Positions 37,843-54,738 of a stretch of 64,000 bases of DNA are shown here, piece by piece. This DNA is from Gemmatimonadaceae bacterium (GTDB lineage: Bacteria > Gemmatimonadota > Gemmatimonadetes > Gemmatimonadales > Gemmatimonadaceae): assembly GCA_036003045.1 (NCBI GenBank), contig DASYSS010000050.1, positions 1-64,000 of the forward strand, written 5' to 3'. How positions within the stretch are numbered: position 1 is the stretch's first letter; the number at the start of each line of letters is the position of its first letter. The notes beneath the pieces are model-generated. The model saw only the letters and a list, made by a program, of their open reading frames with translations, did no database searches and had not been told where the DNA came from. Both the position numbers and the translations under genes were made by a program.

Positions 37843-38648
37843 GGATTGAACTTGTTCGCCGCAAATCCGGCCTGCCACGTCGACGTCGCCTTGTCACGCT
37901 GCGAGTTGAACCAATACGCGCGCCCGAGCTCGAAGTACGCCTCGATGAGGTTCGGTCCCAGAATCAGCGTCTTCTGGAAGAACGTCTGCGCGTCCTCGAA
38001 CATCTCCCGCTCGAGATAGACCAGGCCCAGATAGAAGTGCGCGTACAGCGTCGCCTTCTTGTCGTTGTCGAGCCGGATCGCCCTCGAGAGATGTTCGATC
38101 GCCTCTCCAAAGATACGCTTCTTGAGGCAGATGTAGCCGAGGTTCACCCGCGCCAACGCGTTAATCGGCTCCCGAACCAGAACGCGCTGGAAGCTGACGA
38201 GCGCGTCGTCGTACCGGTCCTGGAGCATCAGCGACCAGCCGAGGAGGGACTCGGCCTGGGGATCTCCCGGCGACAGCTCGAGCGCCTTCGTGAGCATCGT
38301 ATCCGCCTCGGCGTACTCGCCGGCCGAGATCTTGTGCCATCCCTTCTCGATGAACGTCGACGCGCCGAGATGGTCGCTGTGCACGGCGGCCGGCTTGGCG
38401 CCGTCGAGATGCGGAGCCACGGCGGCGGTGTTCGCGCGCACGCCCTTCCATTTCTCGACCAGCGCCAGGACCTCGTCGCGGAGCGCGCCGAGCTCGCGGT
38501 ACTCCTGGTCGATGGTCTTGAACAACGCGCCGATGTCCGCCTTGAGCGCATCGAGCTTCGCGCCGGCGTCCGGTTCCTCGAGTCGCGCGTCGAGCAGCGC
38601 GCGTCGCGCGCGCAGCCCATCCATCACCGCTTCAGTCAACCGCGGCAT
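37785..38648 (-). CDS. Tetratricopeptide-repeat protein in the chemosensory cluster
   Basis: A 287-residue soluble protein. The N-terminal third is a charged helical bundle (LRARRALLDARLEEPDAGA and IDQEYRELGALRDEVLAL), the rest four or five TPR units, such as EYAEADTMLTKALELSPGD and MFEDAQTFFQKTLILGPN. No signal peptide. It starts inside the end of the cheW gene (17-base overlap), which argues for co-translation with the chemosensory proteins, and it is followed by the HExxH peptidase. Probably a protein-protein scaffold. Function not recognised. Confidence 0.75.
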   Translation of the reverse strand: MPRLTEAVMDGLRARRALLDARLEEPDAGAKLDALKADIGALFKTIDQEYRELGALRDEVLALVEKWKGVRANTAAVAPHLDGAKPAAVHSDHLGASTFIEKGWHKISAGEYAEADTMLTKALELSPGDPQAESLLGWSLMLQDRYDDALVSFQRVLVREPINALARVNLGYICLKKRIFGEAIEHLSRAIRLDNDKKATLYAHFYLGLVYLEREMFEDAQTFFQKTLILGPNLIEAYFELGRAYWFNSQRDKATSTWQAGFAANKFNPWGKRCVEAIETVAAGGVP

Positions 38649-39147
38649 CCCCCACGCCCCAGTCCTGCGACGCGTGTTCGACAACGATGCGGTCGGCGTT
38701 CCACATCACGCGATCCACGTCGAGCACGACAACGAGTTGGTCGCGCACCTTCGTGACGGCGCGCACGACGTCGGTCGCCACTCCCTTGAGGAGCGCCGGC
38801 GGCGGCGACATCGACTCCGCCGGTACGACCGCCACCTCGAGCACGGCGTCCACGATCGCCCCGACGCGCCCGTTGCTCGTGTTCAGCACGAGCGTGCGCG
38901 TCTCCGGCGTGATCGTGGCTTCGGCCAGTTCGATGCGGCGGCGCAGGTCGATCACCGGGATCACTTCGCCGCGATGTTCGGTGACGCCCTCGACCCACTT
39001 CGGGACGTCAGGCACACTGTTCGGCGGCGAATAGCGCAGAACGCGATCCACCGCCAACACGTCGGCGGCGAAAAGGTCGACGCCGAGCTGGAAGATCACG
39101 AGCTTCACTCCGCCGGCCGCGCCAAATGCGGTTCCGCTGGTCTTCAT
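38632..39147 (-). CDS. cheW: CheW-like coupling protein (second of three)
   Basis: A 171-residue CheW-fold protein expected to couple CheA to receptors or to other CheW-domain proteins. The core has LVIFQLGVDLFAADVLAVDRVLR, VEGVTEHRGEVIPVIDLRRR, the VLNTSNGRVGAIVDAVLEV strand and the closing VVVLDVDRVMW. Its ATG overlaps the stop of the next upstream cheW gene (ATGA, 39144-39147). It is longer than canonical CheW by a C-terminal tail ending in Asp/Val-rich residues. Being paired with another CheW, it may be an adaptor for a different input. Confidence 0.9.
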   Translation of the reverse strand: MKTSGTAFGAAGGVKLVIFQLGVDLFAADVLAVDRVLRYSPPNSVPDVPKWVEGVTEHRGEVIPVIDLRRRIELAEATITPETRTLVLNTSNGRVGAIVDAVLEVAVVPAESMSPPPALLKGVATDVVRAVTKVRDQLVVVLDVDRVMWNADRIVVEHASQDWGVGDAAVD

Positions 39148-39644
39148 GTGGTCTCTTCTCCTGGCGTCGTCGCCAGCACACCGTCGAGCAACGCGCGCAC
39201 GTCCAGCACCCCGATCAACTCCGACCCGCGCAGCACCAGGCCCATGAGCGCGCCGTCGGAGCCGTCGCTCCCGGGCACGCCGCGCAGCTCGGACTCGCCG
39301 ATCGTGATGGCGTCGTACACGTCGTCAACGGCCAGGCCGACGCAGTGGCCGCCGCCGGGATTGAAGACGAGCGTCGCACCCGCCGTCGACTCGGCGCTCG
39401 AATCCGGCGCGACATCGGAGGGCGCGCGATTCCCTGCCCCCGACACGCCCAAAAGTGCGAGCGGGTCGTAGACCGAGAGCAACTCTCCGCGCAGCGTCGC
39501 GACGCCGCGAACGTGTTCCGGCGCGTCGGGCATTCGTTGGAGCTCCGGGGACTCGATGACTTCGGCGACTGCCGGCAGCGAGACGGCGAAGCGTTCACTG
39601 CCAACCCGGAAGACGAGAACTCGCGCCACGCCGTCACGGAACAT
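39144..39644 (-). CDS. cheW: CheW-like coupling protein (third of three)
   Basis: A 166-residue CheW-fold protein. Core segments are VLVFRVGSERFAVSLPAVAEV, VRGVATLRGELLSVYDPLALL, HCVGLAVDDVYDAI and LIGVLDVRALLDG. A non-conserved loop of about 20 residues (GAGNRAPSDVAPDSS) interrupts the fold in the middle. It overlaps the cheB stop region by 11 bases and is coupled to the following cheW. Three cheW-like genes for one cheA suggests that adaptors with different receptor or scaffold partners share this kinase. Confidence 0.9.
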   Translation of the reverse strand: MFRDGVARVLVFRVGSERFAVSLPAVAEVIESPELQRMPDAPEHVRGVATLRGELLSVYDPLALLGVSGAGNRAPSDVAPDSSAESTAGATLVFNPGGGHCVGLAVDDVYDAITIGESELRGVPGSDGSDGALMGLVLRGSELIGVLDVRALLDGVLATTPGEETT

Positions 39645-40704
39645 GGCCGACCTCCTCCATCACCATGCGGCCGATGACCCGCCCGATTTCCGGCAGCGGC
39701 GCGATGCAATCGGCCCCCGCGAGCTGCAGCGCGGCACCCGGCATCCCGAAGATCGTCGCGGTCTCGCGATCCTGAATCACGGCCCGGCCGCCCGCGGCGC
39801 GAATGGCGCGAGTTCCGTCGGCGGAGTCGCGCCCCATGCCGGTGAGCACCACGGCCAGCACCGAGGATCCGAACACTTGCACGGCCGAGTGAAAGAGCAG
39901 ATCCGCCGCGGGGCGCACACCCCAGACGGCGGGCCTCTCGTCGAGGGCGATGATGGGACCCGCGCCGTCGTCGCGGACGGTCATGTGCTGTCCGCCCGGC
40001 GCGACGTACACACGCCCATGCACGACCGACTCCCCTTCCTCGGCCTCGGCGATACGGATCGGACACATCGAGTCGAGCCGCTGCGCGAAGCTCTTCGTGA
40101 ATCCGCGCGGCATGTGCTGCACGATGAGCACCGCCGCCGGAATCGCCCGCGGCAGATGGGGCACGATGGCGGCGAGTGCGCGCGGTCCTCCCGTGGAGGC
40201 CGCGATCACCACCGCGCTCGACGCCGGCGGGCCGGCCGGCGCGACGCGCTCCACGAAGATCGGCGTGCGCCGCTGGAGCTGGCGCAATCCGACGGGGTTC
40301 GCGGCGGCGGCGGCGCGGAGCGCGTCGAGCAACCGGGGCGCGATCGTCGCGAGATCGAGGCTGATCGCGCCGGAGGGCTTGAGCACGAAATCCACCGCTC
40401 CGAGCTCGAGAGCGCGGAGCGTCGCGGCTTGCCCGCCCTTGGTCGTTCCGGCGCTCAGCATCACGACAGGACGCGGCGCTTCGCTCATGATGTAGCCGAG
40501 CGCGCCGAGCCCGTCGAGCTCCGGCATGTCCACGTCGAGCGTGATGATGTCCGGATTGAGCGCGTGCACGAGCGACAACGCTTCGTTGCCGTCGCGCGCG
40601 ACGCCGGCGACCTCGAATTCCCCCGATTCCTCGAGGATCTGCGAGATCAGCCGCCGCATGAAGGCGCTGTCGTCGACGACGAGGACGCGGCGCTTAAAGG
40701 ACAC
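39634..40704 (-). CDS. cheB: Receptor methylesterase/deamidase CheB
   Basis: Response regulator and methylesterase removing methyl groups from chemoreceptors. The 356-residue protein has a receiver domain (RRVLVVDDSAFMRR, phospho-acceptor in IITLDVDMPELDG, Lys in DFVLKPSG), a linker, and the CheB catalytic domain with Ser in IAASTGGPRAL, His in IVQHMPRGFT and Asp in LTGMGRDSADG. The start is GTG 40704, just inside the end of cheD. With cheR and cheD it forms a complete adaptation module, even though no receptor gene is in the window. Confidence 0.95.
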   Translation of the reverse strand: MSFKRRVLVVDDSAFMRRLISQILEESGEFEVAGVARDGNEALSLVHALNPDIITLDVDMPELDGLGALGYIMSEAPRPVVMLSAGTTKGGQAATLRALELGAVDFVLKPSGAISLDLATIAPRLLDALRAAAAANPVGLRQLQRRTPIFVERVAPAGPPASSAVVIAASTGGPRALAAIVPHLPRAIPAAVLIVQHMPRGFTKSFAQRLDSMCPIRIAEAEEGESVVHGRVYVAPGGQHMTVRDDGAGPIIALDERPAVWGVRPAADLLFHSAVQVFGSSVLAVVLTGMGRDSADGTRAIRAAGGRAVIQDRETATIFGMPGAALQLAGADCIAPLPEIGRVIGRMVMEEVGHVP

Positions 40705-41191
40705 GCGACCCCTTTCGCACCGACCGCACCTCGAGTCGGCCGTCGGCGAGGTGGAAGTAGACGCTGCGACCGTGGTCGCTTCCCACGTCTTCGCCGACGA
40801 TCTCGATGCGGCGCGACGCGAGCGCCTCGCGCACGGCGGCGACATTCCGCTCGCCGATGTTGATCCCCCCCCCGCCGGCCGATGAGAAATTGCTGAACAT
40901 GCTGGCGCCGCCGGCGATCTTCGCGCGGATGCGAATCGGCATGGCGCCGAGCTTCTGCATGTGCTCGACCAGGAGCGGAACGGCCGTGGCCGGGAACTTC
41001 GCCGGGTTCGACCGGTCGCGGGACATGGCCTGGTCGGGCAGCAGGACGTGCGCGAGCCCGCCGACGCGCGCCACCGAGTCGTAGAGCGCGATGGCGACGC
41101 ACGAGCCCAACCCGACGGTCGTGATCAGGCCGTCGGCGGCCACCGCGTAGTCGGCGACCTTCACCCGCAGCTCGTAGGAATCGGCGATCAT
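40694..41191 (-). CDS. cheD: Chemoreceptor glutamine deamidase CheD
   Basis: Deamidates receptor glutamines and, in many bacteria, binds CheC to regulate phosphatase activity. The 165-residue protein has the catalytic Cys in TVGLGSCVAIAL, the His in GGLAHVLLPD, and the Thr/Ser region AKIAGGASMF, followed by NIGERNVAAVREAL. ATG 41191 overlaps the cheR stop (ATGA). A cheC is present in the same cluster at 51690, which fits the CheC-CheD pair of non-enteric systems. Confidence 0.95.
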   Translation of the reverse strand: MIADSYELRVKVADYAVAADGLITTVGLGSCVAIALYDSVARVGGLAHVLLPDQAMSRDRSNPAKFPATAVPLLVEHMQKLGAMPIRIRAKIAGGASMFSNFSSAGGGGINIGERNVAAVREALASRRIEIVGEDVGSDHGRSVYFHLADGRLEVRSVRKGSRVL

Positions 41192-42006
41192 TTGCGGCGG
41201 AAGATGCGTTCGCGCGCGTCGACGGCGACCAACCTGGCGCGCGCCGGCCCGAGCACGGTTTCGACTTTGCCGAGCAGCAGGAAGCCGCCCGGCGCGAGCG
41301 CGTCGTGGAACATTTCGAACAGCCGCGTTTGCGTGTCGCGGTCGAAGTAGATCAGCACGTTGCGGCAGGCGATCAGGTGAAAGGGGCCGCCCGCCGGCGG
41401 GCCGTCGGTGAGGAGGTCGCGTTTCTCGAACCGCACCATGCCGCGGACCGACGGCGAGAGAGTGAACGGCGCGCTCGACGAGAAATAGCGCGCTCGAAGA
41501 TCGGCCGGCGTGTCGGCGAAGTCTGGTTCGGAGAACTGGCCGTGCCGCGCGGCCGTCAGCGAGCGACGGTCGATGTCGGTTCCCACCACGTCGACGCGTG
41601 ACAGCCGCGAGAGCGCTTGTTGCTCGTCGGCATGCCGATGAAAGAGCACGGCGAGCGAATAGGGCTCGTGTCCTGAAGAGCAACCGGCGCTCCAAACGCG
41701 AATCGTCGACAGCGGCGCCGACCAGAGCGCGGGCACCACGTGCGTCGAGACCGCGCGATACGCATCCCAGTTTCGGAACAGCTTCGTGACGTTGATCGTG
41801 AGGGCGTCGAGCAGGCGGTCGTACTCCGACGCGTCGTCGTCCAGCACGCGCGAGTACTCGCTGTAGGTATGCACGCCGCGAGCGCGCATCCGCACCGCGA
41901 TGCGCCGCTGCAGACACTTTTCCTTGTAGCTCGCGCAGCCGAATCCCCGTTCGTCGGAGATCTTGCGCGTCAGGGCGAGAAAGTCGCCGAGGGCCCGGTC
42001 GACCAT
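41188..42006 (-). CDS. cheR: Chemoreceptor methyltransferase CheR
   Basis: SAM-dependent methylation of receptor glutamates. The 272-residue protein has the N-terminal helical domain, the substrate motif LTINVTKLFRNWDAY (usually NxTxFFRD), the SAM motif RVWSAGCSSGHEPYSLA, and ACRNVLIYFDRDTQ. ATG 42006 shares one base with the upstream stop (TGATG). There is no pentapeptide-binding TPR tail; a separate TPR protein precedes it in the operon. Confidence 0.95.
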   Translation of the reverse strand: MVDRALGDFLALTRKISDERGFGCASYKEKCLQRRIAVRMRARGVHTYSEYSRVLDDDASEYDRLLDALTINVTKLFRNWDAYRAVSTHVVPALWSAPLSTIRVWSAGCSSGHEPYSLAVLFHRHADEQQALSRLSRVDVVGTDIDRRSLTAARHGQFSEPDFADTPADLRARYFSSSAPFTLSPSVRGMVRFEKRDLLTDGPPAGGPFHLIACRNVLIYFDRDTQTRLFEMFHDALAPGGFLLLGKVETVLGPARARLVAVDARERIFRRK

Positions 42007-43625
42007 CAGTACGCCTGCCGCACGGATTCGAGGTTCGATCGAACGATCGCGTTGTCCGGGTCGAGCTCGAGGGCTCGCTCCCAACAGCGCAACGCCTCCT
42101 CGCGCTCCATTCGCCGCAGGCGAATGTTCCCGAGCTTGAGGTAGGTGTCCGGCCCGATTTCCGGATTGGCGCGCGTCGCGCGCGAGTACGCCTCGAGCGC
42201 CTCGTCATAACGTCCGGCGCGATAGCGCAGGTCGCCGATGTTCTTGTGCACGTGCGCGACGCCGGCGTCCTCGTGCAGCCCGCGCTCGGCGGCGGCGTAC
42301 GCCCCGTCGTAGTCGCCGAGCCGTTCCTTGACCGCCGCGAGGTTGTTGTGGAGTGTCGCGGCGTGCGGGTACGCCGACACGCCGTCGGCGAGGACCGACG
42401 CCGCGCGCTTGCTGTCGCCGACGAGCGCCGCGGCGAGCGCCGCGAAATGGAACCACGCCGGCGTCGGCGGCTTGGCGCCGAACAACGCTCGCGCGGCGGT
42501 CAGGACTTGGTCGGCCGTGCCGAGATCTCCCGTGAGAAGGCACACGACGCCAAGCGACGTCTGCACGCGCGGATCCTTGGCCGCGCCCCGTTCGATCGCC
42601 GTATTCAACGCGGTGCGCGCCTCGTCGTAGCGGTGCTGCTGCTCGAGCACGAACGCCAGGTTGTGGAACACGGCGGGCTTCGCGCCCGGCACCGTCGTGC
42701 ACTCCCTCAGCGCCGCCGACGCCTCTTCCCATTTCGCTTGCCGCGCGAGCACGAGCCCGATGTAATAACGTGCCCCGCTATCTCCCGCGCGAAGCTCGAC
42801 GACGCGGCGAAACTCGCGCAGCGACTCGTCGAACATTCCCGTCTTGAAGAACGCGACGCCGAGGTTGCGGTGCTCCTCCGCTCGGCCGTACGGGGCCGCG
42901 GCGGGAGCCGGCGCCGTCTTGCCGATGCGATGGATGAAGCCCGCGTTGAGCAGCCCGAGCAGCGCCTTGCCGACCTCGAATTCGACGAGCCCCGTCGCGT
43001 CGATGATTTGCTGCACGTCGCGCATGCCGTCGACCTGCTCGAGCACGCACGTCTGCTCGTCCGTGAGCTCGGCGTCGCTCTTCAGAATGCGGTTGCGATC
43101 CGCTTCGAAGATCAGGTCGAAGCTCGGAATCTTCTTTTCGACGAGGCTCCACTCGTCCACGCGGCGGGCGCCCTCGAGGAGCAGCGACTCGGGGTTGATC
43201 GACACGAGCTGGTCCTGACCCTCGGGCGCGACGTCGGCCTCGAAGTTGAACGTGCCGTGGTGCCACGTGAAAAGGAAATACACGGCCTCGCGAATCTGCA
43301 CGTCCACCGCCTCGCGCAGCTGGTCGGCGCTCACGGCGCCCTGTTCCACGAGCAGGCGGCCGAGCGGCGTATCGGAGCGCTTCGCCTGCGCGTCGAGCGC
43401 GAAGTCGAGCTGCACCTGCGACACGACGCCGGTCTTGACGAGCATGTCGCCCAGACGGTCGCGCCGATTGACGACCGAGGCGTAGCAGATTCGCCCCTTG
43501 TCGAAGTAGATGTAGCCGAAGCTCGTGCGGTGCGTGATGCTGAGGCACCCGGTCTTCTTGCCCATCGCCAGGAGCTGCAGCACGTCCGGGAGGCTCGCCT
43601 CCTTGAGGTTTCCGCGGATCGCCAT
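42006..43625 (-). CDS. DUF4388/PATAN-domain protein with TPR tail
   Basis: A 539-residue soluble protein. Residues 1 to about 70 match the PATAN/DUF4388 domain (AIRGNLKEASLPDVLQLLA, KTGCLSITH, GYIYFDKGRICYAS). A helical MshEN-like segment follows (RLGDMLVKTGVVSQVQLDFAL; PLGRLLVEQGAVSADQL), then a second PATAN-like stretch and a winged-helix-like part (LLGLLNAGFIHRIGK). From about 265 to the end lie TPR units (HRNLGVAFFKTGMFDESLREF and others). PATAN domains in cyanobacterial response regulators contact the pilus-extension motor; by analogy this could be an output or localisation protein. It follows the DnaA-like gene and is coupled to cheR. Confidence 0.85.
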   Translation of the reverse strand: MAIRGNLKEASLPDVLQLLAMGKKTGCLSITHRTSFGYIYFDKGRICYASVVNRRDRLGDMLVKTGVVSQVQLDFALDAQAKRSDTPLGRLLVEQGAVSADQLREAVDVQIREAVYFLFTWHHGTFNFEADVAPEGQDQLVSINPESLLLEGARRVDEWSLVEKKIPSFDLIFEADRNRILKSDAELTDEQTCVLEQVDGMRDVQQIIDATGLVEFEVGKALLGLLNAGFIHRIGKTAPAPAAAPYGRAEEHRNLGVAFFKTGMFDESLREFRRVVELRAGDSGARYYIGLVLARQAKWEEASAALRECTTVPGAKPAVFHNLAFVLEQQHRYDEARTALNTAIERGAAKDPRVQTSLGVVCLLTGDLGTADQVLTAARALFGAKPPTPAWFHFAALAAALVGDSKRAASVLADGVSAYPHAATLHNNLAAVKERLGDYDGAYAAAERGLHEDAGVAHVHKNIGDLRYRAGRYDEALEAYSRATRANPEIGPDTYLKLGNIRLRRMEREEALRCWERALELDPDNAIVRSNLESVRQAY

Positions 43626-43659
43626 CAGCCGCCCCCGTGCCCCGTCGAGAGAGGTCGCG

Positions 43660-45582
43660 TCATGGCGCCTCCTCGATCAATCGGGCCGCGGGATCCGGCC
43701 ACTGCCAGATCACCTTCTCGCGGTCGAGGAAGAACGGATCGCTCGCCGCCTTGAGCGCCGCGGCGCGCGCCGGCTCCGTCTCGTCGGGTTCGAGCGAGGC
43801 GCGGATGAAGCCGATCGTCACGGGCACCGCGGCGACTTCGGCCGACGCCACGATGCGATTGGCGATGCCGATGATCTCGCGTACGCTCGACACCGCGCGC
43901 TCGGCGAGATAGCCGATCATCTCCGCGTTCGGTTCGACGCCGAGATCGCGGAGGTAGCGGGCGTAGAGACGTTCCCGGAGTGAACGATCGGGCGCCTGCA
44001 TCGGGACGACGAGCCCGCCCTCGAATCGCGAACGCAAGCGGTCCTCGAGCCCCGACAACTCGCGCGGCGGCCGGTCGCTCGCCAGCACGAGTTGCTTGCC
44101 CTCGGCGTACAGCGAATTGAAAACGTGGAAGAGCTCTTCCTGCGTGCGCTCTTTCCCGGCGACGAACTGCACGTCGTCCAACAGCAACGCCGACGCGGCG
44201 CTGTAGCGGGCGCGCCAGCGATCGACCGTCCCTTCCTGCAAGGCCGCGATCAACTCGTCGACGAAGAGTTGCGCCGGCACGCACGCGATCGATCCGCGAC
44301 CCGCCGTCGTCGGGAGCAGCCCGTGACCGATCGCGTTCAGCAGATGCGTCTTCCCGACGCCGCTCGGACCGTGGACGAACAGCGGGTTGTAGCGCGCCCC
44401 CGGCGCGCCGACGACGGCGTCCGCGGCGCGCACCGCCATCTGGTTGCTCCCGCCGACCTCGAAGCCGGAACGCGTGAACGCGGACGACGGCCCCGGCGGC
44501 GGCGACGCCACGCGAAGCGCCCGCTCGAGCACCTGCTCCGCCTCGTCGAGACGGGCCGGGTCGCGGAACGCCGGATGGATCGCCATCGACGCGTCGGCGC
44601 GCGCGGTCAGTCGCTCCAGCTCGCGCAGCCGCGCGACGCGGCCCTCGAATTCGCGGAGAAAGGACTCGACGCCGTTCGCCGGCGCGCTTTCCTGGAGTGC
44701 GCGCTCGAGGCTCGCGGTGCGATAGCCCTCGCTCGACCAGTATCCGATCGCCTCGGAAACGCGCTGCCGCCATTGCTCGACGTGCTGCGCGACCGCCGAC
44801 GCGATGTCCGTGAGAAAGCTGGCGAACTCGCCGCTCGGCCGCGGCGGCGTCGAGCGCCGTCGCCGTTCGGCGAGATCGCCCAGCACCGTCATCACGTTGT
44901 CGACGGACACCGGTTCGCCGCCGAGCGCCTGGAATGCGATCAGGCGGTTGAGCGCGCCTTGCAGCTCGCGGATGTTGTCGAATTCCAGGCGGCCGACTTC
45001 GTCGATCACACCGGCGCGGAAGCGCACGCCGCGCTCTTCGCACTTCGCTTTGAGAATCGCCATGCGCGTCTCGAAATCCGGCGCGCCGATGTCGACGATC
45101 AACCCGCCGGCGAGCCGCGTGATGAGACGCTCGTCCACGTCGGCGATCTCCGCCGGGGGCCGGTCGCTCGTCATGACGATTTGCCGGCCGTCGCCTTGCA
45201 GCGCGTTGAAGATTCGCAGCAGCTCGCTCTGCGTCTCTTTGCGCGACGTGAGGAACTGGATGTCGTCGATCAGCAGGACGCCGATGCCGAGGTAGCGCGA
45301 CTTGAACGCGTCGACCGCGCCGTCGGCGATCGCCGCGTGCAGCTCACCGACGAACTCGTCGAGCGTCACGGCGGCAACGGTGAGCGACGGCCGCCGTTGC
45401 GCGACATGGTGGCCGATCGCGCTCATGAGATGCGTCTTGCCGAGTCCCGACCCGCTGTAGACGAAAAGCGGGTTGTACGCCGTACCGGGCGCCTCGGCCA
45501 CCGCGTGCGCGGCCGCGACGGCCAGTCGATTCGACGAGCCGACGATGAAGTTGTCGAAGCGGAGCTTCGAGTCGAGCTGCAT
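43660..45582 (-). CDS. Protein with two tandem DnaA-type AAA+ ATPase domains and no DNA-binding domain
   Basis: A 640-residue ATPase. Domain A: Walker A GSGLGKTH at 44-51, Walker B LLIDD at 103-107, sensor 1 near MTSD (137-140), arginine-finger box ERLITRL at 151-157, sensor 2 NIRELQGALNRL at 203-214. Domain B repeats all of these: GPSGVGKTH at 405-413, LLLDD at 466-470, ASDRPP at 501-506, DRLRSRF at 514-520, SVREIIGIANRI at 566-577. Both begin with the DnaA-style FxxFIVGSSN / FEVGGSN and RYNPLFV. Residues about 240-370 form a charged helical linker. DnaA domain I and the domain IV helix-turn-helix are absent; the tail instead has FFLDREKVIWQWPD (617-630). It sits 9 bases after mglA, so it is not the replication initiator. 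I infer an ATP-driven assembly or scaffold factor for the GTPase/Che system. Confidence 0.93.
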   Translation of the reverse strand: MQLDSKLRFDNFIVGSSNRLAVAAAHAVAEAPGTAYNPLFVYSGSGLGKTHLMSAIGHHVAQRRPSLTVAAVTLDEFVGELHAAIADGAVDAFKSRYLGIGVLLIDDIQFLTSRKETQSELLRIFNALQGDGRQIVMTSDRPPAEIADVDERLITRLAGGLIVDIGAPDFETRMAILKAKCEERGVRFRAGVIDEVGRLEFDNIRELQGALNRLIAFQALGGEPVSVDNVMTVLGDLAERRRRSTPPRPSGEFASFLTDIASAVAQHVEQWRQRVSEAIGYWSSEGYRTASLERALQESAPANGVESFLREFEGRVARLRELERLTARADASMAIHPAFRDPARLDEAEQVLERALRVASPPPGPSSAFTRSGFEVGGSNQMAVRAADAVVGAPGARYNPLFVHGPSGVGKTHLLNAIGHGLLPTTAGRGSIACVPAQLFVDELIAALQEGTVDRWRARYSAASALLLDDVQFVAGKERTQEELFHVFNSLYAEGKQLVLASDRPPRELSGLEDRLRSRFEGGLVVPMQAPDRSLRERLYARYLRDLGVEPNAEMIGYLAERAVSSVREIIGIANRIVASAEVAAVPVTIGFIRASLEPDETEPARAAALKAASDPFFLDREKVIWQWPDPAARLIEEAP

Positions 45583-45591
45583 GGTCGCCCG

Positions 45592-46221
45592 TTACCCGGC
45601 GCGCGCCGTCACGCGCGCGGTGGCCGTCGGCGACCCGGCGCTGAGACGTTTGAGGACGAGCTCGGAGATGGAGCGCAGCGTCTCGAAGACGCCCGGGCCG
45701 TGGAGCGCGTCGGCGGAGAATTCGGGGACGCCGCGAAAATTGAGCGCGTCGGACAACGTGCCGGCCTCGAGGATCAACTCGCTCGGCAGGTCCTGCTTGT
45801 TGTACTGGATCACGAGCGGCACGGCGCGAGCGTCCACGCCCTGGTCGCCGAGGTTGGCGTGGAGGTCCTGAAAGCTCTCGATGTTCTCGTCGAGCTGGCG
45901 CGCCTGGCTGTCGGCGACGAAAACGACGCCGTCGGCGCCTTGGAGGACGAGCTTGCGCGTGGTCTGATAGTAGACCTGTCCGGGGACGGTGTAGAGCTGA
46001 AAGCGGGTGGTGAAGCCGGAGATGGTGCCGAGGTCGAGCGGGAGGAAATCGAAGAACAGCGTGCGGTCGGTTTGCGTCGCCAACGACACCATCTTCCCCC
46101 GCCGGTCCGCGGGGACCTGCTCATAGATGTAGTGCAGATTCGTCGTTTTTCCGGACCGCCCGGGTCCGTAATAGACGATCTTGCACGTAATCTCTCTGGT
46201 GGCGTAGTTGACGAGGGACAT
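45592..46221 (-). CDS. mglA: MglA-type small GTPase
   Basis: Ras-like GTPase of the MglA family, which sets front-rear polarity and controls gliding or type IV pili in Myxococcus and relatives. The 209-residue protein has P-loop GPGRSGKTT (19-27), the switch region with TDRTLFFDFLPLDLG (51-65), PM3 TVPGQ (78-82), where the usual Asp is replaced as in known MglA proteins, and NKQD (141-144). A C-terminal tail of about 15 Ala/Thr-rich residues extends past the core. No ribosome binding site is visible; an AT-rich spacer of 83 bases precedes it. No classical MglB is adjacent, but three roadblock-type genes are directly upstream. Confidence 0.95.
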   Translation of the reverse strand: MSLVNYATREITCKIVYYGPGRSGKTTNLHYIYEQVPADRRGKMVSLATQTDRTLFFDFLPLDLGTISGFTTRFQLYTVPGQVYYQTTRKLVLQGADGVVFVADSQARQLDENIESFQDLHANLGDQGVDARAVPLVIQYNKQDLPSELILEAGTLSDALNFRGVPEFSADALHGPGVFETLRSISELVLKRLSAGSPTATARVTARAG

Positions 46222-46304
46222 CAGTAAATATTAGTTGGTGTATTTATTGTCTCAACAATTCACGAAGTTTCTTTAGTTGGCGATTGAGCATTCTCATTTT
46301 CTGA
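46222..46304 (-). promoter_or_regulatory. AT-rich spacer before mglA
   Basis: 83 bases, strikingly A+T-rich against the surrounding genes, inside an otherwise tightly packed operon. On the minus strand TTGAGA followed 16 bases later by TAATAT could be a promoter. A small inverted repeat, ATTGT / ACAAT, lies at 46246-46259. It may give mglA and the DnaA-like gene their own transcription start. Confidence 0.5.
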
Positions 46305-46820
46305 TCACCGGCCACCCGGCGGCTGGCCGCCTCGTCCCTCCCAGCGATCGCGCGGGCGGAACAGCGCGGCGAGATTGCGATTGAGCTCGGCCTCGAAGCC
46401 GCCGGCCAGGGCCGCCGTGGGCGCGGGCGGCGCCTCCAGCGACGCCGCCGCCAGCTCCCGGACGAGCTCCTCGAAGTAGATCCGGATCAGGCCAAGCGAC
46501 GTGTCCTCGCCGAAGACCGTGAAGCAGATGTACGAACCGCGCGACGTCTCGAGCGGCGCCAGATACATCTGCTTCTCCTGGCCGCCGAAGTGCAGGCCGC
46601 CGAACGCGCGACCGTCGACCTGGCGCCCCAGCTCTCCCGCCGTCGCGTGGACCGCCGACGCCAGCGCGCACGCCGTCATCACGTCCACTTCGCGCGTGAA
46701 GCCGGCCTGCGCCAGCACCTGCCCCGTGGGATGGAGCAGCAGCGCGAGCCGCGCGCGCGCGTCGTCGACGAAGCGCCTGAGCGGCGCTTCGACCCACGGC
46801 TCGACGGCGGCGATTTTCAT
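46305..46820 (-). CDS. Roadblock/LC7-like protein, MglA-linked (first)
   Basis: A 171-residue soluble protein. The region 15-125 has the roadblock/LC7 pattern: helix EAPLRRFVDDARARLALLLH, then TGQVLAQAGFTREVDVMTACALASAVHA, QMYLAPLETSRGSYICFTVF and GLIRIYFEELVRELAAA. A loop of Pro/Ala and an Arg/Gly-rich tail end the protein. Roadblock proteins dimerise and, as MglB, act as GTPase regulators of MglA. The ATG at 46820 overlaps the next upstream roadblock gene (ATGA). Whether it is the GTPase-activating partner is inference from position. Confidence 0.8.
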   Translation of the reverse strand: MKIAAVEPWVEAPLRRFVDDARARLALLLHPTGQVLAQAGFTREVDVMTACALASAVHATAGELGRQVDGRAFGGLHFGGQEKQMYLAPLETSRGSYICFTVFGEDTSLGLIRIYFEELVRELAAASLEAPPAPTAALAGGFEAELNRNLAALFRPRDRWEGRGGQPPGGR

Positions 46821-47167
46821 GCGATCAGCTCCAGGGCCTTGAACAGTTCCATCCGAATCAGCCCCACGTTCGCCGCGGGGTCGGCCACCGTCACGATCAC
46901 GAGGTCGGTCCCCGCGCCGGCGACGCAAATGCGGCCCCGTTCCGCGTCGAGCTGCAAGAACGTCACCGCCCCCAGCTGGGCGGCTTTCGCCGACAAACGC
47001 GCCTTGCGATACACGGATGCGGCGAGCGCCGCTACGCGCTCGCCATCCTGGCCGAACCGGAGACTGGAATCGATCACGAGACCGTCTTTTTCCGAGACGA
47101 TCAAGCTCGCCCGCACGCCACGCTGGCGTGTGAGGGTTTCGAGGACGGGGCGGAGCGACGCGCTCAT
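46817..47167 (-). CDS. Roadblock/LC7-domain protein (second), MglB-like
   Basis: A 116-residue protein made of a single roadblock/LC7 domain: LRPVLETLTRQRGVRASLIVSEKDGLVIDSS is the usual helix-strand-hairpin start (given here as its key parts LETLTRQRGV and SEKDGLVIDSS), followed by VAALAASVYRKARLSA, TFLQLDAERGRICVAG and VGLIRMELFKAL. Its length and simplicity are closest to MglB, the GTPase-activating partner of MglA. It overlaps both neighbouring genes by four bases (46817-46820 and 47164-47167), so the three roadblock-type proteins are probably made in fixed proportion. Confidence 0.85.
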   Translation of the reverse strand: MSASLRPVLETLTRQRGVRASLIVSEKDGLVIDSSLRFGQDGERVAALAASVYRKARLSAKAAQLGAVTFLQLDAERGRICVAGAGTDLVIVTVADPAANVGLIRMELFKALELIA

Positions 47168-48045
47168 TGGGTCACCTTCCCGTCCCCGTCCGCCGCACCC
47201 TTCCGCAACCACGCCGACGCGCGGACCGAACACCGATCCAGCAGGCGCCGGAGAAGGCCCAGCGGGGTGACCTTCGACGCCGCGACGACCAGCAGCCCGC
47301 CGTCCTCGCTCGGCGACATGGCGACGACCGTTCCGCGAGTCTCGAACGTGATCGAGCGCCACTCGCCGACGTCGAGGTATTTCGTCGATCGGCGCACCTC
47401 GTCCGAGATGCCGCTGAGCTGCGCCCCCACGTCCTGCGACACGTCGGCGCCCTGCGCGTCGATGTACACGCCGGCAAGCACCAGTCCATTCGCGTCGAGC
47501 AGAAGCGCAGTCTGTCCGTCGTCCACGAGCAGCGTCGCGAACAACCGGCGTGAATCGTTCGTGCGCTCCGGCGGCACGTACGCGGCCGGGTTCGCGGCCG
47601 GGTTCGCGGCCGGGTTCGCGGCCGCGTTGACGGCGATCGCCGCGTAGCTGCCCGAGGCATGGCGGACCGCGCGCAGCGCGCTCGCGACGGAGGTCCCGTC
47701 GGTCGCCGCCGCATCCGTGAGATAGCGCTCGGCGTCGTCCACGCGCCCCTGCTGGAAGCTCAGATAGCCGAGCCCTTTGAGCGCGCCGGGGTGGCCGGGC
47801 ACGAGACGCAGAACCGCGTTCCATTCGTCCCGCGCGCGAGCGAAGTCGCGACGGTCCACGGCGATCCGCGCGAGAAGGTCGTGCGCGTCGGCATTGTGCG
47901 GATGCCGCTCGAGACCGCGGAGCGCCACCTTGTGCGCCAAATCGAGCTGCTGCTGCCGGCGCAGCGCGTCACCGAGTTGGAGGAACACGAGGCTCCCCGG
48001 CTCGCGCGCGAGCTCTTCGCTCCAACGGCGGACGTCGTCAGCCAT
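47164..48045 (-). CDS. TPR plus roadblock-like protein with AANP repeat linker
   Basis: A 293-residue soluble protein. Residues 1 to about 125 are TPR units (DALRRQQQLDLAHKVALRGLE, ARDEWNAVLRLVPGHPGALK). A flexible linker follows with NPAANPAANPAA, encoded by a 12-base tandem repeat. The C-terminal half (about 165-270) has roadblock-like segments: LFATLLVDDGQTALLLDANG, LVLAGVYIDA, and ITFETRGTVVAMSPSEDGGL. It is the third protein of this type in the block. It probably bridges TPR partners to the MglA/roadblock complex. Overlaps the DUF4388 gene by eight bases. Confidence 0.75.
   Translation of the reverse strand: MADDVRRWSEELAREPGSLVFLQLGDALRRQQQLDLAHKVALRGLERHPHNADAHDLLARIAVDRRDFARARDEWNAVLRLVPGHPGALKGLGYLSFQQGRVDDAERYLTDAAATDGTSVASALRAVRHASGSYAAIAVNAAANPAANPAANPAAYVPPERTNDSRRLFATLLVDDGQTALLLDANGLVLAGVYIDAQGADVSQDVGAQLSGISDEVRRSTKYLDVGEWRSITFETRGTVVAMSPSEDGGLLVVAASKVTPLGLLRRLLDRCSVRASAWLRKGAADGDGKVTQ
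47582..47629 (-). repeat. 12-base in-frame tandem repeat in the TPR-roadblock gene
   Basis: Plus-strand unit GCGGCCGGGTTC repeated three times exactly, plus a fourth changed copy. On the coding strand it encodes the linker NPAANPAANPAA. Its length is a multiple of three bases, so copy number could change without a frameshift. Confidence 0.9.
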
Positions 48046-48985
48046 TGACGTTCACCGCAAGCACACGTTCGAGCCGCGCGAGCGCCTCGACTGCGTCGCG
48101 AGCCTCGGGCGCAACCACGCCCGTCGGCGCGCGCCGCAGCAGTTGCTCGACCGCCGCGCGCGCCGCGCTCACCTGCGCGGCGACGCCGGTCGGCAAGAAG
48201 TCCAACGTATCGGGCGGCGCCGGCATGGGCGACGGCTCCGGTGCACGCCGGATCGCCACGACGCCGGTCGTCGCCAGTCCGTACGCGATCTTGGCAGTCT
48301 CGAATTCGTCGCGGCCGAGCAGCGCGGCGATCGCCCGCAGGTCGCGATCGCCGTCGATCATCGTGAGGACCTGCCACTCGTGTGGCAGCAGATCGAGCGT
48401 TGGTCCGCCCGCGCCGTCGCCCGCCCGGTCGTCGGCCACCGGCGCCAGCTCGGGGACGACGTCGACGCTCGGCACGACGTCGGCGATGCGCGACCACTCG
48501 TCGATGCGCCGCGCCCCTTCCATCAACAGCGATTCGGTCGACACGGCGATGCGCGTGTCGTGGGGCAACGCTTTCCGCGCCCGCTCCTCGAAGGAGAAGA
48601 AGCCTTCGCGCCACGACATGAGCTCGAACACCACGCTCTCGATCTGCAAGCGGAGTTGTCGCTCCAGCTCGCGCTGTGTGATCGCGCCGACGCGCACGAG
48701 TGAGTCGACGATGGTGAGGTCGCCGCCCCGCGCGTCGCCGCCGGCGCTGTGCGCGTGGTCGAGGTCGGCCTGCGTGATCCGTCCCGCTTCCAGGAGCACG
48801 AGCTCGATCGGCACGCTCTTGCTGCGGATCGACGCGTGCACGACGCGCCCGTCGTCGAAGTGCACGACGCCTTCGTCCTCGCGCAGCTTCGACGACACGC
48901 AGAGCATCCCCGTCTTCCGGCTCAAGTCGAGCAGCTGGAAGACGTCGTGGATGCCGAGCTCGCGAAGTGGGCCTTCGATCGCCAT
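48038..48985 (-). CDS. DUF4388/PATAN-domain protein (second)
   Basis: A 315-residue soluble protein and paralogue of the N-terminal part of the protein encoded at 42006-43625. It has the PATAN/DUF4388 start AIEGPLRELGIHDVFQLLDLS, KTGMLCVSS, then VVHFDDGRVVHASIRS. A helical segment follows (VLLEAGRITQADLDHAH; LVRVGAITQRELERQL), then SWREGFFSFEERA, LLMEGARRIDEW and a winged-helix-like part (FETAKIAYGLATTGVVAI). It has no TPR tail; the long C-terminal helix (VSAARAAVEQLLRR) ends the protein. ATG 48985 is preceded by the stop of the giant TPR protein two bases away. It likely shares partners with the other PATAN protein. Confidence 0.85.
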   Translation of the reverse strand: MAIEGPLRELGIHDVFQLLDLSRKTGMLCVSSKLREDEGVVHFDDGRVVHASIRSKSVPIELVLLEAGRITQADLDHAHSAGGDARGGDLTIVDSLVRVGAITQRELERQLRLQIESVVFELMSWREGFFSFEERARKALPHDTRIAVSTESLLMEGARRIDEWSRIADVVPSVDVVPELAPVADDRAGDGAGGPTLDLLPHEWQVLTMIDGDRDLRAIAALLGRDEFETAKIAYGLATTGVVAIRRAPEPSPMPAPPDTLDFLPTGVAAQVSAARAAVEQLLRRAPTGVVAPEARDAVEALARLERVLAVNVNG

Positions 48986-48987
48986 CG

Positions 48988-51693
48988 TCAGCTCGCCCGC
49001 AGAGTGAGGATGCGTTGCAGATCGGACGCGCTGCGCAGATCTCGCCGCGCGCGCCGGGCAAATGCCGACCCGGGATCGAGCGCGATCACCTTGCGCCAAC
49101 GGTCGGACGCTTCGCGGAACCGGTGCTGCTCGGCGAGGAGCTTGCCGTCGAAGTACACCGCGCCCACGTTGTCCGGGTCGAAGCGCAGCACGCGTCCGAA
49201 CGCCAGGCCGGCGTCGCGATGCCGCGACAGTTCCATGAGCACTTCGCCGAGCGCGATGAGCGCGTCGAAGTTGTACGGATCGCGGTGCAGCAGCTCGATG
49301 AGCAGCGGCATCGCGTCCCCCGGGCGGCCGAATCGGCGCCGCAGCTCGGCGAGCGCGAGGGTCGCTTCGGCGTACGTCGGCACGGCGTCGAGCGCCGCGA
49401 CGAGCTCCCGCTCGGCTTCGCGATCGCGTCCCTGCGACTGGAGCAGCTCGGCCAGGCGGAAGCGCACGACGGCGAAATCCGCGTCGAGGTCGAGCGCCGC
49501 CCGGTACATGTCGATCGCGCCGTCGACGTCGCCGATCGACTTCGCGATGTCGCCGGTGCGGAGCAACACGTCGGCGCGGCGCGGCGCGACGCGTCGCGCG
49601 CGCGCCAGCAGCTCGATCGCCGACGCCGGATCTCCGGCGTCGGCGCAGGCGGCCGCCGCGAGCAGCAGCGCGTCGACGTCGGTGGGATCGCGGTCGACGA
49701 GCCGCTGCGCGATGGGGCGCGCCTCGCTGGCGCGGCCGAGCCGCAACAAAGCCAACGCTTCACCGGCGAGCGCCGACGAGCGCTCCTGGTCGAGCGAGAG
49801 CGCGGCGCGATAGCGCTCGAGCGCCTCGCCGAACAGTCCCTGCTTGGCGAAGACGTCGCCGAGGAGGGTCATCCCTTCGGCCCGGTCGTGGCCGCGCGAC
49901 AGCGCGCGGTTGATCTCGACCGACGCGCGATCGTAGTAGCCTTTCGACAGATAGTCCGATGCCATCGAGAACGGCGACGTGTCGCTCGCGTGTCTGGCGA
50001 CGGGCGCTTCCGTCTGAGCCGCGGTTCCGGGAACGAGCTCGGTGAACAGCGTGTCGAGCGACCCCGGATCGAAGTCGAAATCGGCGACGACCTCCTCGGT
50101 CTGATGCGCGCCACCCAGGTCCGGCGTGACGGTGAGGTCGGGATCCTCGTACTCCACGTCCATCGCCAGCTCGAACTTCTGGGGGACGTAGTACGGGTCC
50201 AGCTCGAGGGCGCGCTTGGTCTCGCGAAGCGCGCCCTCGAAGTCGCCGAGGTTCGACAAGGTGAAGCTCATGTTGTAGTGCGCCTCGGCGAAATCGGGGC
50301 GCGCCTGGATGGCCCGGGCGAACGCGTTGCGCGCTTCCTCGTACTTGTGCAGTTCGGCCAGCACCAAGCCGACGCCGTTCCACGCCACCGGATGTTCCGC
50401 CGCGGAGCGCAACACGGTGCGGTAGGCGTCGAGCGCCTGCTGGAATTTCTTCGCGCGGCTGGCGAGGAGCGCGAGGTTGAGTCGCGCTTTCACGAACTCC
50501 GGACGGTGCGCGAGCGCGGCGCCGAAGACGGCGAGCGACTCCTCGGCCGAGCCCCCGTGATAGAGCGCCACGCCGAGGTTGTTCTGCGCGATCGCGTACG
50601 ACGGCTCTTCGTCGAGCGCGCGACGGTAGCTCGACTCGGCGTCGGCAAAGCGGCCCTCTTGATGCAGCGCGACGCCGCGCTCGTTCCACAGTTTCGGACT
50701 GTGGGGCTGTCGATGCAGCAGATCGTCGTACAGGGCGATCGCTTCGCCCGGCTGGCGCAGCAGAAGGTGGACCTCGGCCATCGCCTGCAGCACGAGGTCG
50801 CGGTCCTCGCCCCGGTCGAGCGCGACGCCGTACTCGCGCATCGCTTCCGCGTAGTATCCCTTGCTCCGGAATGCGAGGCCCAGGTTGTAGTGGGCCAGCT
50901 GCCCGTCGACCGACACCTGCAGCTCTCGCTTCGCCGGCGCCGCGTCGCGGCTGGCGCGCTGTTGCTCCAGCGAGAGATTGGCGTGCGCGCGCGACAGTGT
51001 CGGGTTCAGCTTGATCGCGCGGCGCGTCGCCGCCTGGGCATCCTCGTGCCGTCCGATGTCTCCGAGCACGAAGCCCATGAGGTACAGGGCGTCGTGATTC
51101 TCCGGGTTCAGCTCGATCGCGCGCTCGAGCGCGCGGAGGGCATCTTCATTCAGCCCCCTGTGATATAGAATCTCGCCGAGCGTGAACCGGAGCAGCGAGC
51201 TGTCCGGGTCGCGGACCAGCGCGCGCTCGATGCACTCCTGCGCGCGTTCCATGTCGCCCGCGTTCTTTTCGGCAAGCGCGAGCTGCAATAGCGCGGCGAC
51301 GTCGTTGGGCGCGTACTTCAACAAAGCGCGAAACTCCTCGGCAGCTTCTTCCTGCTTGCCGAGGAGTGAGAACGTGCGCCCGAGCTCCCAGCGCGCGTCG
51401 CGGTCGTCGGGACATTGCCGCAGGCGCTCGCGCAATTCGGGGACGCGCGTGTCGTAGTAGCCGGTGTTGAAGTAGGCGATCTCGAGGTTCTTCTGCGCGA
51501 CCTGCATCGTGTGGTCGAGCTCGAGCGCCTTCATGAACGCGGCGACGGCTTCCTGGTACAGCCCCTTGTTGTAGTACAGCACCCCGAGGTTGTTGTGCGC
51601 GCCGGCGTCCGACGGATTGATCCGCCGGGCGAAGGAGCGCAACACCTCGCGGTCGCGTTCCGACGTCAGGGGTGACCCCGGGAACATGATCAC
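48988..51693 (-). CDS. Large tetratricopeptide-repeat protein in the chemosensory cluster
   Basis: A 901-residue soluble protein almost entirely of TPR units, about twenty in two arrays. Array one runs to about 505 (AGAHNNLGVLYYNKGLYQEAV, then units such as NLGVALYHGGSAEESLAVF). An acidic, repeat-free spacer at about 510-570 (DVEYEDPDLTVTPDL, VVADFDFDPGSLDTL) separates it from array two (YLSKGYYDRASVEINRALS and onward). The start is GTG 51693 overlapping the cheC stop (GTGA), or ATG 51687. No signal peptide. In Myxococcus-like systems TPR proteins organise motility complexes; this one likely acts as the scaffold for PATAN and roadblock partners. Function otherwise unknown. Confidence 0.8.
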   Translation of the reverse strand: MIMFPGSPLTSERDREVLRSFARRINPSDAGAHNNLGVLYYNKGLYQEAVAAFMKALELDHTMQVAQKNLEIAYFNTGYYDTRVPELRERLRQCPDDRDARWELGRTFSLLGKQEEAAEEFRALLKYAPNDVAALLQLALAEKNAGDMERAQECIERALVRDPDSSLLRFTLGEILYHRGLNEDALRALERAIELNPENHDALYLMGFVLGDIGRHEDAQAATRRAIKLNPTLSRAHANLSLEQQRASRDAAPAKRELQVSVDGQLAHYNLGLAFRSKGYYAEAMREYGVALDRGEDRDLVLQAMAEVHLLLRQPGEAIALYDDLLHRQPHSPKLWNERGVALHQEGRFADAESSYRRALDEEPSYAIAQNNLGVALYHGGSAEESLAVFGAALAHRPEFVKARLNLALLASRAKKFQQALDAYRTVLRSAAEHPVAWNGVGLVLAELHKYEEARNAFARAIQARPDFAEAHYNMSFTLSNLGDFEGALRETKRALELDPYYVPQKFELAMDVEYEDPDLTVTPDLGGAHQTEEVVADFDFDPGSLDTLFTELVPGTAAQTEAPVARHASDTSPFSMASDYLSKGYYDRASVEINRALSRGHDRAEGMTLLGDVFAKQGLFGEALERYRAALSLDQERSSALAGEALALLRLGRASEARPIAQRLVDRDPTDVDALLLAAAACADAGDPASAIELLARARRVAPRRADVLLRTGDIAKSIGDVDGAIDMYRAALDLDADFAVVRFRLAELLQSQGRDREAERELVAALDAVPTYAEATLALAELRRRFGRPGDAMPLLIELLHRDPYNFDALIALGEVLMELSRHRDAGLAFGRVLRFDPDNVGAVYFDGKLLAEQHRFREASDRWRKVIALDPGSAFARRARRDLRSASDLQRILTLRAS

Positions 51694-52307
51694 GCGACGC
51701 GGATCGCCTTGAGAATCGCGCTGAGCGACGCGGTGTCGGGCAGAAGGAGGAAGAAGCCGCGCAGCTTCTCCTCGGACTGGTTCAACACGAACTCGCTCTC
51801 GACGCAGAACACGAAGTCCTTGTCGCCGCCGAACTGGACGTAGGTCGTCGTGAGCACGGCATCGGACATGTCGATCGCCAGCGACGGCGGCGACGGGATC
51901 AACATCATCCCCATGAAATCGCTCAGCGCGTTCATGTACGCCGAGCTGAGGATGTTGCCCGCCTCCTTGATCGCCGACTGCTGCATGACCGAAAAGTCGT
52001 CGGTCGTCTCCCGGCGGCGGAGCAGCAGCTCGGCGAGACGCAGCGCCGTGCGCCGCGGGAACACGAGCAACGTGCGGCCGGTGAGGTCGCCGAGCATGTG
52101 CATCAACACGGCGGCGACCGGCTCGTCGGGCGTCGTGATGTGCGGCGGCACCTCTTCCAGCTTCGCGACGTTGATCGTCGGCACGCTGATCATGATCGTC
52201 TCGCCGATCATCTGCGACAGCGCGGTCGCCGCGTGTCCCGCGCCGATGTTCGCCACTTCGCGGAGCGCGTCGAGTTGCAGCTCCTTCAATGCCATGAGGT
52301 CTTCCAT
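51690..52307 (-). CDS. cheC: CheY-P phosphatase CheC
   Basis: Phosphatase dephosphorylating CheY and regulated by CheD. The 205-residue protein has the two CheC phosphatase motifs: the first in LREVANIGAGHAATALSQM (Glu-x2-Asn) and the second in IKEAGNILSSAYMNALSDF, each followed by a conserved Pro (VPTIN, IPSPP). Both Glu/Asn pairs are intact, so both sites could be active. It lies ten bases after cheA and is coupled to the giant TPR gene. No cheZ is present. Confidence 0.93.
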   Translation of the reverse strand: MEDLMALKELQLDALREVANIGAGHAATALSQMIGETIMISVPTINVAKLEEVPPHITTPDEPVAAVLMHMLGDLTGRTLLVFPRRTALRLAELLLRRRETTDDFSVMQQSAIKEAGNILSSAYMNALSDFMGMMLIPSPPSLAIDMSDAVLTTTYVQFGGDKDFVFCVESEFVLNQSEEKLRGFFLLLPDTASLSAILKAIRVA

Positions 52308-52316
52308 ACGAGTCCT

Positions 52317-54323: not shown

Positions 54324-54353
54324 GGCGCTGGGGTCGCACGAGGACGTCCGTGC

Positions 54354-54716
54354 TTAGCCGAGGACGCGTTGAACCGCTTCGAGAACGCGACTGGGTTGGA
54401 ACGGCTTGACGACGAAGTCCTTCGCGCCGGCTTGGATCGCTTCGACGACGAGCGCCTGCTGCCCCATGGCGCTGCACATGAGAATCTTCGCGCCGGGGTC
54501 GAACTTGCAGATCTCGCGCACGGCATCGATGCCGCCCATGTCCGGCATGACGATGTCCATCGTCACGAGGTCCGGACGGAGCTCGCGGTACTTCTCCACC
54601 GCCTGAAGTCCCGTCTCGGCTTCGCCGACGATCTCGAACCCGGCCTGGGTGAGAATGTCCCCGACCATGGTGCGCATGAAAATGGCGTCGTCGCAGACCA
54701 ACACTCGTTGATTCAA
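54354..54716 (-). CDS. cheY: Single-domain response regulator CheY
   Basis: Diffusible output of CheA. The 120-residue receiver has the acidic pair CDD, phospho-acceptor in TMDIVMPDMGG, the Ser of LMCSAMG and Lys in DFVVKPFQP. The start is a TTG at 54716 (NQRVLVCDDAIFMR), five to six bases after a strong GGGAGGGGAGG; this is one of the clearest ribosome binding sites in the window. What it binds is not shown here, since no flagellar or pilus genes are present. PATAN, MglA or the DnaA-like ATPase are possible targets. Confidence 0.95.
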   Translation of the reverse strand: MNQRVLVCDDAIFMRTMVGDILTQAGFEIVGEAETGLQAVEKYRELRPDLVTMDIVMPDMGGIDAVREICKFDPGAKILMCSAMGQQALVVEAIQAGAKDFVVKPFQPSRVLEAVQRVLG

Positions 54717-54738
54717 GAAAGCCTCCCCTCCCGAAGAC

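Follow-up and report, generated by a model that had tools for sequence, protein, structure and literature searches.

Gene Organization and Overall Structure of tDnaA

The window, i.e., the whole 64,000-nucleotide stretch of Gemmatimonadaceae DNA that was analyzed (contig DASYSS010000050.1), contains a genuine open reading frame of coding-type codon composition at positions 43660–45582 of the (−) strand. It encodes a 640-residue protein, hereafter tDnaA, in which Pfam Bac_DnaA (PF00308) matches two stretches (353 bits, E = 3.1e-106). The two DnaA-type AAA+ modules are separated by a helical linker domain and followed by a C-terminal tail (Table 1). The AlphaFold model, built with an alignment of 59 sequences, has a mean pLDDT of 89 and high confidence for both modules and the linker, whose helices lie at residues 254–359 (pLDDT mostly 81–96). 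Each module has an ATPase core and a helical lid, and its second strand is followed by the two helices peculiar to DnaA. In a Foldseek search, the top PDB match of tDnaA was domain III of Bacillus subtilis DnaA (8bv3), with a TM-score of 0.95 by target and 46% identity.

The two end domains of DnaA are absent. Module 1 begins at residue 3, leaving no place for domain I, and the best NCBIfam DnaA stretch stops at 345 of 437, i.e., without domain IV. Pfam gave no match to Bac_DnaA_C or to the DnaA N-terminal domain at E ≤ 0.01, and neither Pfam nor the AlphaFold model places a helix-turn-helix after module 2, where a low-confidence tail is found instead; a helix-turn-helix hidden in the last 60 residues was rejected on these grounds. 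The double PF00308 match, the missing domain I and IV matches, and the model all agree with the original prediction of tandem DnaA modules without domains I and IV.

Searched against the genome, the DnaA ATPase profile scored 190 and 170 bits on the two modules of tDnaA, compared with 230 bits on the genome's own DnaA. This ordinary DnaA lies on a separate contig and is the only further full-strength DnaA-type match. A frameshifted or fused canonical DnaA was rejected as the origin of tDnaA, because an ordinary DnaA is present elsewhere in the genome and the tandem form is kept in more than 100 genomes. From a defence-gene library, only weak ATPase-domain matches were obtained.

Table 1. Features of tDnaA and its neighbors, in window coordinates.
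Feature	Position	Strand	Evidence
DnaA-type AAA+ module 1 (residues 1–232, ATPase core and lid)	44887..45582	(−)	PF00308; AlphaFold pLDDT ~95
Helical linker domain (residues 250–365), opening with helix EFxxFLxDV	44488..44835	(−)	Alignment; AlphaFold
DnaA-type AAA+ module 2 (residues 366–600)	43783..44487	(−)	Pfam and PDB matches
Predicted C-terminal docking tail (residues 614–640), EKxxWxWPDxxxRxIEExR	43663..43743	(−)	Alignment; models
PATAN-TPR protein (DUF4388 and TPR repeats), constant partner	42006..43625	(−)	PF14332 E 1.7e-39; TPR repeats
MshEN-type double c-di-GMP-binding motif in PATAN domain (RLGDMLVKTGVVSQVQLDFALDAQ and PLGRLLVEQGAVSADQLREAVDVQ), PATAN-TPR residues 57–110	43296..43457	(−)	NF053729
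Operon-type MglA small GTPase	45592..46221	(−)	Arf/small_GTP matches; orthologues adjoin tDnaA in most loci
Divergent roadblock-like protein (start reassigned to MKIAAVEP)	46305..46820	(−)	Robl_LC7 13.2 bits, below cut-off
Roadblock/LC7 protein, MglB-like (start reassigned to MSASLRP)	46817..47167	(−)	Robl_LC7 E 5.9e-11
TPR and roadblock protein	47164..48045	(−)	TPR and Robl_LC7 matches
Second PATAN (DUF4388) protein	48038..49099	(−)	PF14332 E 3e-29
901-aa TPR-repeat protein	48988..51693	(−)	Many TPR matches
CheC phosphatase	51690..52307	(−)	PF04509 E 3e-22
CheA kinase	52317..54323	(−)	Hpt, P2, dimer, HATPase, CheW domains
CheR, CheD, CheB, CheW, CheW (named by inspection)	38632..42084	(−)	tblastn synteny; CheW domains

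Operon and Genome Setting

tDnaA belongs to an operon of the order CheW-CheY-CheA-CheC-TPR-PATAN-TPR/roadblock-roadblock-roadblock-like-MglA-tDnaA-PATAN-TPR-CheR-CheD-CheB-CheW-CheW. Synteny extends across most of the taxonomic order, consistent with the proposal of an operon in which mglA and che genes are combined. As predicted, tDnaA lies next to mglA, with a gap of 9 nt on the same strand. The divergent roadblock-like gene is syntenic in most relatives; the first start of its reading frame is probably too far upstream, and MKIAAVEP fits better.

All CheW-domain matches of the genome fall within the operon (window positions 38632–55182), i.e., there is one che locus. The genome has no flagellin match, and eight of its T2SSE-family ATPases score over the cut-off. 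Since all CheW matches lie in the operon and flagellin has no match, this sole chemosensory system probably has a surface or otherwise non-flagellar output.

A second MglA, ~62% identical to that of the operon, was found at another locus in nearly all of 66 related genomes (e.g., L233–L237); because these had been selected by hand so that negatives were included, the counts of mglA co-occurrence are not to be read as frequencies. Genomes of genera g2 and g9 that have no DnaA-type gene likewise have no operon-type MglA. The second MglA is also present in genomes without the operon.

ATPase Residues and the ssDNA-Binding Region

In the window protein, each module has Walker A (GKTH), Walker B (DD), sensor 1 (SD), the box VII arginine, and sensor 2 (VRE or IRE). 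Across 59 tandem proteins, both Walker A lysines, Walker B, the box VII arginine, and sensor 2 of module 1 are nearly invariant. The ATPase positions of module 1 are retained in 52–59 of the 59 relatives, with 53–59 for Walker A/B, the finger, and sensor 2. Module 2 is less strict: the Walker A lysine is kept in 58/59, Asp469 in 59/59, Asp470 in 54/59, the finger arginine in 56/59, and the sensor-2 arginine in 46/59, and the lid is missing in 6/59. In the f4/f5 set, two rows of which are members of the order, Walker A and B are mostly gone from module 2 and the finger arginine is kept in 13/13, as would be expected of a partner acting in trans. Judged by these residues, module 2 is a pseudo-ATPase in one family. 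The claim that both modules keep their ATPase motifs thus holds for the window protein and for module 1 in the relatives, but must be loosened for module 2.

The original prediction also described tDnaA as devoid of a DNA-binding domain. This is correct for the double-strand-binding domain IV, but the ssDNA-binding region of the DnaA AAA+ domain is structurally present in the AlphaFold model. The K-E-R-T stretch, which aligns to canonical DnaA and which we take to be an ssDNA contact from Aquifex DnaA–ssDNA work, is retained in module 2 as the GKERTQ signature (K in 49/59, R in 54/59, and T in 43/59 relatives). It is conceivable that tDnaA is a positional ATPase tethered to the nucleoid or to ssDNA, with a ParA-like role for Che clusters, in which the ssDNA face of DnaA places the signaling complex. 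The initiator-specific motif helices in both modules and the signature of module 2 are in line with such a role; yet the signature is changed in module 1 (E116 in 55/59 relatives) and partly lost in f5, and single-module lineages dispense with module 2 altogether. We therefore consider this role rather unlikely.

Distribution and Variable Number of DnaA Modules

Relatives of tDnaA, 31–75% identical, occur throughout the class Gemmatimonadetes, mostly in the syntenic CheA...MglA-tDnaA-PATAN-TPR-CheR-D-B-W operon. Full-length tandem relatives are present in more than 100 of the 201 genomes of the order, and when 395 genomes sampled from the phylum were searched with a linker profile, 245 contained the family, every match listed belonging to the same class. 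In a pattern scan outside Gemmatimonadota, the other matches, of ~240–280 codons, looked like ordinary DnaA genes.

The number of DnaA modules varies between two, one, and none. Families f6 and f9 and genera g8 and g16 have single-module forms, whereas g22 and g28 have linker-only forms without any AAA+ module. Mini-proteins of ~60–90 residues, consisting of the first linker helix and the tail only, are found in g3, g5, and g14. These mini-proteins (L221–L227 and L240–L242) lie between mglA (or CheC) and the PATAN-TPR gene and are easily missed by annotation. A tree of the PATAN-TPR proteins unites the mini lineages in a single clade (100/99), and the losses that leave one module or none fall at several points of it. 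Because forms with one module or none keep the tail and the linker helix, the retained core of the family seems to be made of these two elements and does not consist of the two ATPase modules.

Such repeated reduction raises the possibility that the DnaA modules are decaying evolutionary leftovers and that only the linker and tail matter; the degenerate module 2 of f5 points the same way. However, the tandem is kept within the order at 31–75% identity, with the ATPase residues near-invariant in 59 relatives, which makes this reading highly improbable.

PATAN-TPR as the Constant Partner

The PATAN-TPR gene lies directly downstream of the DnaA-type, linker, or mini gene in 75 loci counted by script and in L213, i.e., in ~76 of 76 loci with enough flanking sequence. 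PATAN-TPR played no part in the choice of these loci, which rested on a DnaA-type, linker, or mglA match. The adjacency holds for every architecture, with or without mglA or che: ~15 of the ~76 loci have no mglA, and several have no che genes. The number for mglA was taken from neighborhood comparisons, as the script undercounts mglA where matches overlap. Family f5 (L212–L218 and L230–L232) carries the tandem gene beside PATAN-TPR, with neither mglA nor a complete che cluster nearby. Genus g5 has its ~60-residue mini-protein between CheC and PATAN-TPR, again without mglA. In L128 (G104) and L204 (G174), the operon has no mglA and still contains PATAN-TPR together with a DnaA-type or linker protein.

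Thus, the constant neighbor of the DnaA-type gene is PATAN-TPR, not MglA. The conserved link to mglA that had been predicted is common, in that it is seen at most loci, but it is absent in f5, g5, G104, and G174. This bears on the proposal of a tDnaA filament or clamp that depends on ATP and places MglA itself. DnaA AAA+ domains do form ATP-dependent filaments (PMC5448010), and mglA is the upstream neighbor at most loci. Nevertheless, the pairing with PATAN-TPR persists where no MglA is adjacent (f5, g5, and two further genomes), and some lineages with mglA have lost the ATPase modules; a filament or clamp acting on MglA is quite improbable.

The PATAN domain of the partner also carries a putative c-di-GMP-binding site. 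NCBIfam NF053729 scored 52.8 bits on PATAN-TPR, above its cut-off of 38. By inspection, the first of the two motifs fits the published 24-residue MshEN c-di-GMP motif, and the second its relaxed form (PMC5013675). The MshEN insertion is lost in 8/8 PATAN-TPR proteins of the mini-protein clade, which has also lost the AAA+ modules. As one event in one clade, this co-loss is no more than suggestive; some members of the tandem set also show an imperfect motif pattern.

C-Terminal Tail and Docking Model

Trp628 and Arg634 of the tail are invariant in the alignment of 59 relatives. The tail is conserved in most lineages, with weak scores in some f5 rows and in AAA-less linker proteins, and it stays at the C-terminus even in forms without lid 2, module 2, or all AAA+ modules. 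No other copy of the tail was found in the genome.

Modeled alone, the tail of the DnaA-type protein is disordered (pLDDT ~52, range 49–55). For a docking model, the relative L116 was used, in which the tDnaA and PATAN-TPR genes are in frame and 40 codons apart. The read-through, with its two stop codons rendered as glycine, serves as a modeling tether only and yields a single chain: the last 60 residues of the DnaA-type protein, a 40-residue spacer, and PATAN-TPR, with 66 further rows in the alignment. In this model, the tail has pLDDT values of 86, 94, and 82 over residues 31–60, while the spacer remains at ~35 and most of PATAN-TPR exceeds 85. The tail is thus predicted to dock on the PATAN-TPR protein, becoming ordered in the tethered single-chain model. 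That the tail might be a docking site had been part of the original prediction, and its conservation, its terminal position, and its predicted ordering on PATAN-TPR all speak for it.

The EFxxFL helix that opens the linker is kept in the mini-proteins. It was also considered as an MglA site that decays where mglA is absent; this is only partly true. The helix is lost in about half of f5 but kept without mglA in L212, L213, L215, and the g5 mini-proteins. Since it persists in several mglA-less forms, it is not claimed as an MglA site.

Relationship to DnaA and Hda

The known roles of DnaA-clade AAA+ proteins are the initiation of replication and the control of this step, along with the loading of helicases or transposases. 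The modules of tDnaA share with domain III of DnaA the AAA+ fold, the initiator-specific motif helices, which are present in both modules of the model, and box VII. tDnaA differs from DnaA in that its module is doubled, domains I and IV are lacking, a helical linker and a predicted docking tail are added, and its setting is a signaling operon; the lack of the two end domains led to its rejection as DnaA. In an unrooted tree of the modules, module 2 forms one clade and canonical DnaA another, and all single modules group with module 1; thus, module 2 stands apart from canonical DnaA, as do module 1 and the single modules.

Hda/HdaA resembles tDnaA as a DnaA-clade AAA+ protein without a double-strand DNA-binding domain, and its N-terminal clamp-binding motif is of the QLxLPL type. 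The N-terminus of tDnaA (MQLDSKLRFDNF; family consensus MxLDxRxRFDxF) contains no such motif, and the Hda equivalog model gave 167.4 bits summed over the two modules, below its cut-off of 194.8. On these two counts, tDnaA was not accepted as Hda, from which it further differs in its tandem or variable number of modules and its genome setting. A functional analogy may still be drawn, in which the AAA+ modules pair with the cell's DnaA and tune replication initiation by the chemosensory or MglA state. The modules are clearly DnaA-type with arginine fingers, the DnaA ATPase profile has no strong match in the genome beyond tDnaA and a single ordinary DnaA, and there is a precedent in Hda, which acts on DnaA via AAA+–AAA+ contacts (PMC5448010). 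Such a regulator is nonetheless unlikely: apart from the unreached cut-off and the missing motif, several lineages shed the AAA+ modules and retained the rest, and the genomic context is one of signaling, not replication.

Literature searches returned no paper on tandem DnaA-domain proteins, no characterized relative of tDnaA, no experiment on any family member, and no work on MglA in Gemmatimonadota, in agreement with the earlier statement that no protein of this kind is known to have been characterized. That genes for MglA-family GTPases are associated with PATAN genes was already described in 2014, in a survey without mention of DnaA (PMC4316618). Compared with the known PATAN (DUF4388) genes near mglA/mglB, the pair of PATAN-TPR and a DnaA-type adaptor, as well as the tail, is undescribed in the papers found. 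We see in tDnaA a known ATPase clade with a new architecture and in a new setting. The original prediction had named a characterized homologue, a C-terminal helix-turn-helix, and an unconserved mglA link as counter-evidence; neither of the first two was found in these searches and models, and the mglA link is real though not universal.

Proposed Function of tDnaA

We cautiously favor the view that tDnaA is an adaptor in an MglA/chemosensory surface-signaling operon, with its tail on PATAN-TPR and its AAA+ modules as an ATP-dependent assembly switch. Through its C-terminal tail, tDnaA would dock on PATAN-TPR, the product of the next gene, and the helical linker may extend this contact or touch another partner. 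The DnaA-type modules would constitute an added nucleotide switch. From residue conservation and the action of DnaA, module 1 would bind and hydrolyze ATP, and module 2 would mainly donate an arginine finger; likewise, ATP may drive the self-association of tDnaA and hydrolysis may release it. In this way, ATP, and probably c-di-GMP as well, would govern how the cell assembles or positions PATAN-TPR along with MglA and the Che proteins. The output may be the steering of type IV pili or gliding, given the lack of a flagellin match, the single che locus, and the several pilus/secretion-type ATPases of this genome. Counted against the adaptor and switch are the single-module lineages, which do without module 2. 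A broader account, possible rather than probable, is that a DnaA-type ATPase was recruited from replication to signaling. There, a tandem AAA+ machine assembled on PATAN-TPR as a c-di-GMP-binding scaffold would connect ATP and c-di-GMP with the MglA GTPase and determine where the only chemosensory system acts.

To our knowledge, no DnaA-clade AAA+ protein has previously been shown in motility or polarity; tDnaA, if the proposal is true, would be the first to work there. A class-wide family with one or two DnaA modules on a chemosensory/MglA operon would show that a replication ATPase has moved into signaling. Since nature provides the same tail with two modules, one, or none, what the ATPase does can be tested directly by removing domains, and the conserved tail is testable as a peptide. 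The operon probably steers surface movement, and the family also offers an entry point to the surface behavior of Gemmatimonadota.

A comparable known system is the MglA–SgmX polarity and pilus module of Myxococcus xanthus, in which MglA, roadblock, and TPR proteins are likewise tied to a chemosensory system and SgmX is a TPR effector of MglA-GTP (PMC7519303, PMC11580455). Unlike the operon here, that module has no DnaA-type ATPase described in the parts of those reports that were consulted. The 901-aa TPR-repeat protein of the window is a possible SgmX counterpart.
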